Of a stretch of DNA of 34,884 nt, positions 10,098 through 12,342 are shown in pieces. Where the stretch lies: the NCBI GenBank assembly GCA_022564545.1, contig JADFLG010000015.1, positions 1-34,884 of the forward strand, read 5' to 3'. How positions within the stretch are numbered: the stretch's first letter is position 1; each line of letters begins with the position of its first letter. Below the pieces are notes generated by a model. That model searched no databases and had not been told where the DNA came from. It saw only the letters and a list, made by a program, of their open reading frames with translations. A program made the translations under genes and the position numbers. The stretch is from Chloroflexota bacterium. Lineage in GTDB: Bacteria > Chloroflexota > Dehalococcoidia > Lucifugimonadales > Lucifugimonadaceae.

Positions 10098-10102
10098 TTC
10101 GT

Positions 10103-10109
10103 CCTCCTC
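10103..10109 (-). promoter_or_regulatory. Strong ribosome-binding site deciding the acetyltransferase start
   Basis: On the minus strand the bases read GAGGAGG, followed by five bases and GTG at 10097. This near-perfect Shine-Dalgarno match supports the GTG start over the upstream in-frame TTG. The same bases would encode Glu-Glu-Asp in the longer reading, so chance cannot be excluded. Confidence 0.6.
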
Positions 10110-10423
10110 AATATCGGCGTCATTGACGATATTAACGGTTTCGGGGGCCACGCGATGGTCTCTGAACACACACCAGTCGAGGCTCTGGTGCCCGATCAAG
10201 CTGCGGTAAGACAATCAGGGCCGGGTGCCCGAGTATACCCGACAGCGCCAGACAGCAATTGTGGGCATTCACGGAGCGTGTCGCATCAGGATTGCCCGGC
10301 CGCGCCTGGTAGCACGAATTGCTTCACATGATACGATTTGGCATCTTGGGCGGTAGCAATCGATGTCACACAGGTGGCTCGACGCCCGGTATCCAGCTTA
10401 ACAAGCAGATTTGAGGTAGAAAA

Positions 10424-10708
10424 ATGTCCGATCACTGGAAAATGGAAGCCGAGATCGAGTACTGCGTGCCCTGCGGCTACGCCAACCTGGCCGCGAACAT
10501 GGTAAATGAGCTGTTCCAGGCAGCCGGCCCTGCACTGGCGATTTCGCTGAAGCCCGGACACAGCGGAGCGTTCAAGGTAACCGTCGATGGTCGTGTGCTG
10601 TGGGACAAGAAGACCGAAGGCCGGTCTCCACACATCATGGAAGTCAAGGAAATAAAGGCTACGGTCGCCAACATGATCGAGTCCGGTGCCGTAATCCAGA
10701 CCAGCTAA
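10424..10708 (+). CDS. SelW/Rdx-family thioredoxin-fold protein, Cys form (CxxC)
   Basis: A 94-residue protein of the Rdx family (SelW, SelT, SelH, Rdx12), small thioredoxin-fold redox proteins. It begins MSDHWKMEAEIEYCVPCGY, with the redox pair Cys14 and Cys17 right after the first beta strand. It continues with the helix YANLAANMVNELF, the strand ISLKPGHSGAFKVTVDG and VLWDKK, all as in the family. A ribosome-binding site (GAGGT) lies about seven bases before ATG 10424. The next gene, 53 bases on, is a close paralogue in which the second Cys is replaced by TGA. The shared residues run the whole length, so the two arose by tandem duplication. The pair is probably co-transcribed and ends at the terminator at 11107. 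The redox partner is unknown; thioredoxin or glutathione are candidates. Confidence 0.88.
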   Translation: MSDHWKMEAEIEYCVPCGYANLAANMVNELFQAAGPALAISLKPGHSGAFKVTVDGRVLWDKKTEGRSPHIMEVKEIKATVANMIESGAVIQTS

Positions 10709-10751
10709 ACGACTCACCAAATACCCGAACGGCCCTAACCGTCTTTGATAT

Positions 10752-10756
10752 GGAGG
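10752..10756 (+). promoter_or_regulatory. Ribosome-binding site of the selenoprotein gene
   Basis: GGAGG stands five bases before ATG 10762. It fixes the start of the TGA-containing paralogue and shows that the segment upstream of the TGA is set up for translation, as expected of a functional gene rather than a decayed copy. Confidence 0.7.
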
Positions 10757-10761
10757 TCTCT

Positions 10762-11043
10762 ATGGCCGATGTACCGGCGAAGGTGCATGCTGAAATCGAA
10801 TACTGCGTGCCGTGAGGCTACCATTCCGTGGCTTTCTGGATGGGAAGCGAACTGTATGTGGCGGGCGGATCGCAGGTGGCCGTGAAACTGACGCCCGGCA
10901 AGGGTGGAGTGTTCAAGGTCACCTTGAACGGCGAGGTTGTATGGGACAAGGCTGAGCAGGGCAGGTACCCGGCTTTGCCCGACGCAAGGGAGATAAAGAC
11001 GAAGGTGGCAAACATGGTTGAAGCGGCCGCTGCCAATAGTTAA
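10762..11043 (+). CDS. SelW/Rdx-family selenoprotein with in-frame TGA (Sec), CxxU
   Basis: Reading from ATG 10762, a TGA at 10813-10815 (codon 18) is followed in the same frame by 75 sense codons to TAA at 11041-11043, for 93 residues. Before the TGA the protein reads HAEIEYCVP and after it GYHSVAFWM, so the TGA falls exactly on the second Cys of the CxxC in the upstream paralogue (AEIEYCVPCGY). Downstream, KLTPGKGGVFKVTLNGEVVWDK and EIKTKVANMVE match that paralogue closely. A hairpin with Gs in its loop lies just after the TGA. The simplest reading is selenocysteine: Cys15-x-x-Sec18, the active site known from SelW. Automated annotation would split it into a 17-codon stub and a fragment from 10828. 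A recent nonsense mutation is possible but would not explain the intact frame and the hairpin. Confidence 0.82.
10821..10843 (+). promoter_or_regulatory. Candidate bacterial SECIS hairpin after the TGA
   Basis: Five bases after the TGA, CCATTC (10821-10826) can pair with GGATGG (10838-10843) with one G-U pair, leaving an 11-base loop CGTGGCTTTCT. Loop guanines at 10828, 10830 and 10831 lie 13 to 16 bases from the TGA, about the distance known for bacterial SECIS elements read by SelB, which lie inside the coding region. The pairing was found by eye; no folding energy was computed. Confidence 0.55.
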
Positions 11044-11106
11044 GACCGCTGGCCGAGACCCGTGCCTGGGACCATCGTTCAAGCCCATCAGGGTAATAAT
11101 CGAGAG

Positions 11107-11139
11107 AACACCCGGGTCGCGACTGGCCGGGTGTTTTTT
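11107..11139 (+). terminator. Rho-independent terminator after the SelW-like pair
   Basis: AACACCCGG (11107-11115) pairs perfectly with CCGGGTGTT (11127-11135) across an 11-base loop, and the stem runs into six Ts (11134-11139). It lies 64 bases after the selenoprotein stop and closes the two-gene unit, separating it from the alcohol dehydrogenase. Confidence 0.85.
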
Positions 11140-11247
11140 CTTGATTTGGGCAACGGTTCGGCAGAGCAATGTGTTTCAGCCCGAAATTAGCGCTAATTTA
11201 CGACTATCAAAATCCCGGAAACCCCTGAAACCAAATGGAGCCCGTGC

Positions 11248-12342
11248 GTGAAAGCAGCCGTCCTGTTCGAGTCGAATAAGCCCATGCCGATCATGGAGCT
11301 TGACCAGTCGGAGCCAAAGACGGGCGAGGTGCGGGTCAGGATGTCGGCCGCAGGTGTTTGCGCCTCGGATTACCACGTGATGATCGGTCATAACCCGACC
11401 CCGATGCCAATAGTTCTGGGTCACGAGGGGGCCGGGGTCGTCGAGACTATCGGACCGGATGTAACTACCGTGAAAAAGGGCGACCGCTGCGTCCTGTCGT
11501 TCGTTCCGAACTGCGGCCACTGCCGGTCGTGCCGCACCGGTCTTTCGAACCTCTGCGACACCAACAGGGAAACTGGCACCCGCCAGTACGACGGTACGTT
11601 TCGTCTTCACACCGCCGACGGCATCGAGGTTCACCAGTTCGCCAAACTCGGCGTTTTCGCCGAATCGATAGTCGTTCCTCAGCAGGCCTGCTATCCGATG
11701 CCCGACGATGTGCCCATGGAGGTCGGCGCCCTGATCGGATGCTCGGTAACCACCGGAATTGGCGGGGTGATAAACCAGCCTGGCATGCGGGCCGGAATGA
11801 CTGTTGCCGTGATAGGGGCCGGCGGCGTCGGGCTGAATGCCCTCCAGGGCGCAAGACTGATGAACGCTTCGAAGGTGATTGCCGTCGACATATTCGATCA
11901 CAAGCTTGAGTTTGCGTACAAATTCGGGGCGACGCACGTCATTAACTCCAGGGAGCAGGACCCGGTTCCCGCGATCCAGGAAATGACCGGCGGCGGCGTT
12001 GATTTCGCCTTCGACACGTTCGGTCACAGGATCACCACCGAGCAGGCCTACGGGGCCACCCGCAAGGGCGGCACTACCGTCGTCATCGGTCTCGCGCCAG
12101 ACGGCATGAATGCCGAGATTCCGCTGGTCGACCTGGTCCGCAACCAGAAAACCCTGGTTGGCAGCTATTACGGCTCCGCCAGCCCGCACGAAACGTTCGG
12201 CAAACTGCTCGACTTCTATTTGCAGGGGCGAATTGACGTGGCCGGTATGGTGACCCGCCGTCACAAACTCGAAGAGATCAACGAGGCGTACGAAGCGCTG
12301 GCGAGGGGTGAGGATGGCAGGGGAGTGATTGTCTTCGATTAA
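11248..12342 (+). CDS. Zinc-dependent alcohol dehydrogenase (class III-like MDR)
   Basis: A 364-residue zinc alcohol dehydrogenase. Catalytic zinc ligands appear as Cys38 in GVCASDYH, His59-Glu60 in GHEGAG and a Cys in LIGCSVTTGIG. The structural zinc site is complete: Cys89, Cys92, Cys95 and Cys103 in CGHCRSCRTGLSNLC. The NAD site is VAVIGAGGVGLNALQGARL, followed by an Asp in VIAVDIF, which favours NAD over NADP. The family includes formaldehyde and S-nitrosoglutathione dehydrogenases and broad alcohol dehydrogenases; the substrate is unknown. The start GTG 11248 has GGAG seven bases upstream. The gene stands alone between the terminator at 11107 and the hairpin at 12366. Confidence 0.92.
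   Translation: MKAAVLFESNKPMPIMELDQSEPKTGEVRVRMSAAGVCASDYHVMIGHNPTPMPIVLGHEGAGVVETIGPDVTTVKKGDRCVLSFVPNCGHCRSCRTGLSNLCDTNRETGTRQYDGTFRLHTADGIEVHQFAKLGVFAESIVVPQQACYPMPDDVPMEVGALIGCSVTTGIGGVINQPGMRAGMTVAVIGAGGVGLNALQGARLMNASKVIAVDIFDHKLEFAYKFGATHVINSREQDPVPAIQEMTGGGVDFAFDTFGHRITTEQAYGATRKGGTTVVIGLAPDGMNAEIPLVDLVRNQKTLVGSYYGSASPHETFGKLLDFYLQGRIDVAGMVTRRHKLEEINEAYEALARGEDGRGVIVFD

Follow-up and report, generated by a model that had tools for sequence, protein, structure and literature searches.

The window analysed here is a whole contig of 34,884 nucleotides (JADFLG010000015.1) from a Chloroflexota bacterium of the Lucifugimonadaceae. It contains two neighbouring paralogous genes, and the second one is interrupted by an in-frame TGA exactly where the first one has a cysteine. 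The question is whether this TGA ends a gene or is read as selenocysteine (Sec). We regard it as very probable, on comparative sequence grounds, that the frame 10762–11043 is a working bacterial Rdx/SelW-like selenoprotein gene. The features of the locus are collected in Table 1.

Table 1. Predicted features of the SelW-like locus (coordinates in the window)
Feature	Coordinates	Strand	Evidence
Cys paralogue (Rdx, CVPC), 94 aa, upstream partner	10424..10708	+	Pfam Rdx E=8.2e-19; pair in 17 loci
GGAGG, Shine-Dalgarno-like	10752..10756	+	sequence, 5 nt before ATG
SelW-like (Rdx) selenoprotein gene (predicted), 93 residues, Sec18	10762..11043	+	frame, profiles, relatives
UGA predicted to be read as selenocysteine, second position of CxxU	10813..10815	+	TGA in 17/17 aligned copies
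bacterial SECIS hairpin, predicted	10831..10848	+	fold, frozen codons, synonymous control, covariation
intrinsic-terminator-like hairpin CACCCGG...CCGGGTG + T6	11109..11139	+	fold

The reading frame and its family

The frame starts with the ATG at 10762–10764 and ends with the TAA at 11041–11043, with 75 sense codons between the TGA and the TAA. Under the standard code it yields only two ORFs, both of 71 aa: 10600–10815, which stops at the TGA, and 10828–11043, which starts at a GTG behind it. Read through, the frame matches the Pfam Rdx profile PF10262 over residues 11–83 (E=1.8e-18, 66.9 bits, cut-off 22.6) and NCBIfam TIGR02174 (SelT/SelW/SelH; 51.5 bits, cut-off 34.2). The narrower equivalog profile NF041051 (SelTWH_Campy) is not reached by the read-through protein (51.4, cut-off 88). 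The motif is CVPU where the upstream neighbour shows CVPC. Thus the elements on which the initial annotation had based its selenoprotein call, that is, the TGA in place of the second Cys of CxxC, the long open frame behind it and the GGAGG before the ATG, are all seen in the sequence, and the open frame carries the Rdx match. Among the other TGA-bearing frames of the window, outside the main ORFs, nothing convincing was found by eye.

Relatives and selection on the frame

The read-through protein has a match in 155 of the 197 genomes drawn from the order and in 59 of the 76 genomes of the family. The genus of the window includes the cultivated SAR202 bacterium Candidatus Lucifugimonas marina. 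A TGA copy lies directly behind a Cys copy in 16 of the 19 genomes of this genus; of the other three, G114 (96% complete) retains its second copy in decayed form, G218 has the Cys copy only, and G188 (84% complete) has no match. The alignment considered below consists of 17 loci, sixteen from the genus and one (L065, SMWD01000133.1) from a record titled Gammaproteobacteria. The latter carries a Cys/Sec pair of the SAR202 type, 86% identical to that of the window, and is possibly a misnamed bin.

At this codon TGA is present in all 17 aligned copies, including that of CP046147.1, the complete genome of the isolate Ca. L. marina JH1073, hence the UGA is not there by chance. The initial annotation had named TGC in close relatives, together with relaxed selection behind the TGA, as signs against a selenoprotein. 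The close orthologs keep TGA, not TGC, and the pN/pS ratio of the Sec copies at the 17 loci amounts to 0.10 upstream and 0.19 downstream of the TGA, compared with 1.6 and 2.3 in the shifted reading frames; these ratios are rough, the synonymous sites being near saturation, and only pN/pS is given because the corrected dN/dS figures saturate. The constraint on the Cys copies is stronger still (0.06 after the motif). These ratios indicate purifying selection before the TGA as well as after it.

In two genomes the frame has a further stop: the G166 copy has two TGA codons and the G190 copy has TGA plus TAA, the second stop in both cases being the end of the gene. A distant TGA copy, L137 (G064:C6:96683-97140), has an extra in-frame TAG further on. 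There is also a weak third match in G219 (L195).

Selenocysteine machinery

The host genome (2.9 Mb in 195 contigs, 93% complete), of which the window is one contig, encodes SelA (501 bits, cut-off 268), SelB (318 bits, cut-off 242), SelD (366 bits, cut-off 125) and a tRNA-Sec with anticodon TCA (66 bits). The contig carrying SelB ends within the SelB frame, and so the C-terminal, SECIS-binding part of SelB is unseen. A search for these genes in the rest of the genome had been proposed as a check of the selenoprotein call, their absence counting against it, and all four were found, SelB being cut by the contig end. Further, the motif CAGU of the host SelD gene (L020, G000:C77:5104-6033, minus strand) is encoded with an in-frame TGA, hence SelD is probably a second selenoprotein, of the CxxU type. 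Of the 26 ORFs of the window that were taken as genes by eye, 14 have TGA as their normal stop, and therefore UGA is not generally reassigned.

The tRNA-Sec (L001, L181; G000:C163:23500-30390) adjoins a thioredoxin-like ORF. Upstream of it lies a cluster that resembles, by eye, a formate dehydrogenase/hydrogenase-type complex, and no TGA occurs in the two long frames of this cluster.

Throughout the family, tRNA-Sec was counted only at 65 bits or more, with stricter search filters. Matches of 52–56 bits are doubtful, since a 54-bit match in the host is tRNA-Ser(GCT) according to ARAGORN. Among the 76 family genomes, SelA exceeds the cut-off in 53, a tRNA-Sec of at least 65 bits is present in 46, and the TGA form is present in 37; the last count leaves out the decayed copy of G114 and a fragment of 23 residues in G234 (61% complete). 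The TGA form occurs in 36 of the 54 genomes with SelA and/or such a tRNA-Sec, and in one of the 22 with neither (Fisher p=4e-7, indicative only, as the genomes are related). This one genome, G232 (82% complete), contains a fragment of SelA. The association holds in one direction only, as 18 of the 53 genomes with SelA have no TGA form.

Fold of the hairpin and the bacterial SECIS limits

The initial annotation placed a hairpin behind the TGA. Its stem is formed by 10831–10836 and 10843–10848, starting 15 nt after the UGA, with the loop around UGGAU (10837–10841). The 24 nt at 10828–10851 fold with −7.7 kcal/mol (z −2.78), compared with −2.5 kcal/mol (z −0.05) at the same place in the Cys paralogue. 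The fold of the 51 nt starting from the TGA is unexceptional by itself (z −1.06), and it is the comparative evidence that is strong.

The part of PMC13188914 available to us gives the following limits for bacterial SECIS elements: an apical loop of 3–9 nt, an upper stem of 4–16 bp, G in at least one of the first two loop positions, 16–37 nt between the UGA and the loop, and an energy of at most −7.5 kcal/mol. The candidate hairpin can be described either as the loop GGAU closed by U-G on 7 bp or as UGGAUG on 6 bp, both within the size limits. Columns 26 and 27 of the alignment are G in all 117 rows, and the spacing between the UGA and the loop is 21–22 nt. The energy, −7.7 kcal/mol for the 24-nt stretch, lies close to the limit, and the window hairpin was missed by the automatic bSECIS scan.

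Overall, the scan with the published limits does not separate the two forms, as 80 of 117 Sec copies and 18 of 36 Cys copies pass. They differ only in the position of the loop, which lies 20–23 nt after the codon in 56 of 117 and 3 of 36, respectively. The Rfam scan of the window produced no match at the gathering thresholds.

Conservation of the hairpin

The Sec set was compiled from 106 loci with motif hits, of which 104 passed the score, and the 17 aligned copies, 121 in total. Removal of L090 and L101, which are the same places as L051 and L099, and of two rows that were identical or contained N left 117 rows. The 80 order-level places are a selection from the TGA-bearing places among the matches listed. 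Since the rows were chosen by TGA, they are not counted as evidence for its conservation. The Cys set, obtained with a narrow motif, comprises 17 + 20 copies, 36 of them distinct; 15 more were added for the larger tree.

In pairs having the same residue, the codon is identical in a fraction of 0.87 of cases at codons 5–14 after the TGA in the Sec copies, as opposed to 0.44 for the Cys partners at these loci. The fractions for codons 15–44 are 0.43 and 0.45. Compared with random synonymous versions, codons 5–12 have a mean z of −2.00 in the Sec copies (n=117) and −0.32 in the Cys copies (n=36), and 56% of the former, against 8% of the latter, fall within the best 5% of the versions. Two control stretches, codons 20–27 and 30–37, have mean z of 0.08 and −0.16 in the Sec copies and of −0.32 and −0.58 in the Cys copies. 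In the wider interval of codons 1–12 the Sec and Cys copies are alike (mean z −0.90 and −0.79).

The alignment cannot be described with a single stem register; it takes two. Register 54 is the best or tied in 86 Sec copies and register 55 in 31 (n=117); the stem of the window itself, with six pairs, is of register 55, shifted by one base. The better register pairs on average 4.54 of 6 positions, compared with 3.71 (range 3.48–3.86) when the arms are swapped between genomes. At most two of the six positions are paired in either register in 15 of the 117 copies. RNAalifold applied to the 117 rows yields only three pairs with a weak energy of −0.58, probably because the two registers are mixed.

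The covariation score for register 54 is 0.395, the shuffled mean being 0.184 and none of 500 shuffles being as high, although related sequences can exceed such shuffles without any structure. When the partners are slid, the score falls to 0.056–0.171. Two of the five measures are unclear: 146 of 500 shuffles are as high for pairs changed on both sides, and 57 of 500 for pair types. When the partners are slid by −3, almost as many cells are paired as in register 54 itself (65.0% vs 69.8%). Covariation in register 55 is weaker (0.213 vs 0.135 shuffled, with 435 and 483 of 500 shuffles as high by the same two measures), and sliding it by −1, that is, into register 54, gives 0.436.

Columns 21 and 33 hold the wobble positions of codons 6 and 10, and a standard pair is possible between them in 91 of the 105 distinct rows (UA 29, CG 28, GC 27, AU 5, GU 1, UG 1). 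Four interchanging Watson–Crick pairs at mostly silent columns would be hard to explain otherwise than by a structure. Codon 8, in the loop, is UGG (Trp) in all 117 Sec copies, whereas only nine of 36 Cys copies have Trp and 27 have Asn, Tyr or Ser. It looks as if the RNA loop holds Trp at this codon, with the caveat that the Cys copies share descent. Taken together, the comparative data argue that the hairpin after the UGA is under selection at the RNA level, acting on silent bases.

Organization of the gene pair

At all 17 aligned loci the Cys copy is directly upstream of the Sec copy, the distance between the Cys codon and the Sec codon being 334–382 nt. In the window the two genes are separated by 53 bases, and downstream of the Sec gene there is a terminator-like hairpin; the region 11100–11140 folds with −22.5 kcal/mol. 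Given the short gap and this hairpin, the two genes probably form one transcript, of which the hairpin is likely to be the end. By itself the terminator pattern is not significant in a scan of 10100–11300 (2 sites observed vs 1.3 expected). The next gene, at 11248–12342, is dehydrogenase-like, as named by eye.

In another genus of the family the pair is adjacent but reversed, with the Sec gene first and the Cys gene second (L051/L090 in G107; L088 in G233).

Alternative explanations

One alternative is a pseudogene, that is, a decaying gene in which TGA has arisen from a Cys codon by mutation. Real decay of a Sec copy does occur in the genus, in G114. The window and 16 other copies, unlike G114, retain the TGA, the open frame and purifying selection on both sides of it; with the frame after the TGA conserved in 17 of 17 aligned copies, we consider this explanation highly improbable and reject it. 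An error of sequencing or assembly at a single base might be suspected in one contig of a 195-contig draft. However, the same TGA is found in 16 other copies, among them that of Ca. L. marina JH1073, which is described in the available part of PMC10444878 as an isolate sequenced on PacBio. The error explanation has a negligible probability and was rejected too.

The locus might also encode a peptide of 17 residues, terminated by the TGA, and separately a protein restarted at the GTG 10828, from which an ORF of 71 aa is indeed open. The restarted protein would be without CxxU and without the beginning of the Rdx domain, conservation upstream of the TGA is no lower than downstream of it (pN/pS 0.10 vs 0.19), and codon 5 is not a start codon in many relatives. 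This makes a restart very unlikely, and it was rejected. We give the same low weight to the UGA being decoded by an ordinary tRNA, via programmed read-through or a reassigned UGA. While the amino acid is not visible from DNA alone, the genome has the Sec machinery, with which the TGA form is associated, the UGA is situated exactly at the redox Cys and is followed by a SECIS-like hairpin that is under selection, and TGA terminates 14 of 26 ORFs of the window taken as genes. Decoding as Sec, as originally proposed for this gene, is supported by the machinery, the retained TGA and the hairpin, and remains the preferred reading.

Proposed function

By analogy with the known bacterial pathway, SelA and SelD would make Sec-tRNA(Sec), and SelB would bind the mRNA hairpin and deliver Sec at the UGA. 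The product would be a protein of 93 residues with a Cys-Val-Pro-Sec redox pair. Because of the CxxU motif and the family, it may be a cytosolic thiol/selenol oxidoreductase, although this step is less certain than the decoding. The function of SelW is described as unclear in the consulted part of PMC1088965, CxxU suggesting a redox role and an interaction with glutathione having been found. We would guess that the Cys paralogue, probably co-transcribed, can take over under selenium shortage.

Comparison with known SelW-like proteins

The gene is of a well-known kind and ordinary for its family; it is the gene pair that is useful, and the SECIS candidate is unusually well supported. With the known SelW-like bacterial selenoproteins (PF10262; TIGR02174) it shares the Rdx domain, CxxU and a hairpin behind the UGA. 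It differs in the host, SAR202 (Chloroflexota), in the position of the Sec gene directly behind a Cys paralogue, and in the support of the hairpin by covariation across an order. According to the sections available to us, SelW-like proteins are the most numerous marine selenoprotein family in the GOS survey (427 Sec and 56 Cys sequences; PMC2398784), are represented by 48 Sec and 7 Cys sequences in the Sargasso Sea (PMC1088965), and account for 11.3% of marine selenoprotein genes (PMC9402790). The excerpt of PMC1794560 at hand states that very few or no Cys homologues of SelW-like proteins occur in Sec-containing organisms; in contrast, here the Cys and Sec forms are present in one genome. Neighbouring Prx and SelW genes were reported in GOS reads (PMC2398784, in the same available part), likewise a SelW selenoprotein gene adjoining a redox gene, but here the neighbour is a Cys-form Rdx paralogue and not a peroxiredoxin. 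The solved Rdx structures 3dex, 2ojl, 2fa8, 2oka, 2p0g and 2obk belong to the same family by sequence (E from 4e-11 to 9e-8); in the alignments with 3dex and 2ojl, Cys is at the Sec position of the window protein.

A limited literature search found no mention of SAR202 together with selenoproteins, and the SAR202 cultivation paper (PMC10444878) has no word beginning with "selen". Within the limits of this search, the SAR202 host and the Cys/Sec pair may be unreported. With this locus, the commonest marine selenoprotein family is assigned to an ocean lineage that has a name and is in culture (SAR202, Ca. Lucifugimonas), so that its use of selenium is open to testing; the locus also provides a comparative case for a SECIS hairpin kept by selection within a coding sequence.

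Transitions between Sec and Cys and loss of the Sec copy

In the tree of 117 Sec and 36 Cys copies, constructed without the Sec/Cys column, all 36 Cys copies form one group (97/84; 98% of bootstrap trees). When 15 further Cys copies are added, two changes are needed and 50 of 51 Cys copies stay together. The remaining one, L183 (G041, from another family of the order), is placed among Sec copies, and is apparently the result of a second, independent Sec-to-Cys change of Rdx. The large Cys group, which includes L047 from another family, sits among the Sec copies of the family of the window. Since it lies inside the Sec copies, the Cys form is most simply derived from Sec via one duplication. 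The tree is based on few columns and lacks an outgroup, and the direction from Sec to Cys is what we infer from it; this direction agrees with the available part of PMC1794560, where Sec is taken as the original form of SelW-like proteins.

Loss of the Sec copy is seen in G114. The remains of this copy (L182, G114:C108:19800-20600) have frame shifts and an extra stop TAA, and the first Cys is lost; they are flanked by the Cys gene on one side and, downstream, by the dehydrogenase-like gene that also follows the pair in the window. In genera g2 and g7, eleven genomes have SelA and a strong tRNA-Sec, and Rdx in the Cys form only. Presumably other selenoproteins keep the pathway there.

These observations suggest a tentative description, possible rather than probable in our view, of the adjacent Cys and Sec genes as a selenium-buffered redox unit, the Cys duplicate also being the stepping stone by which SAR202 lineages abandon Sec in this protein. 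The order of events would be a duplication, the change of one copy to Cys and then the loss of the Sec copy. The grouping of 50 of the 51 Cys copies, the eleven Cys-only genomes and the decaying copy of G114 fit such an order. With Cys and Sec copies side by side and one Sec copy caught decaying, the family offers a natural experiment. G114 itself keeps SelA, and its only tRNA-Sec-like match, of 53 bits, may be tRNA-Ser.
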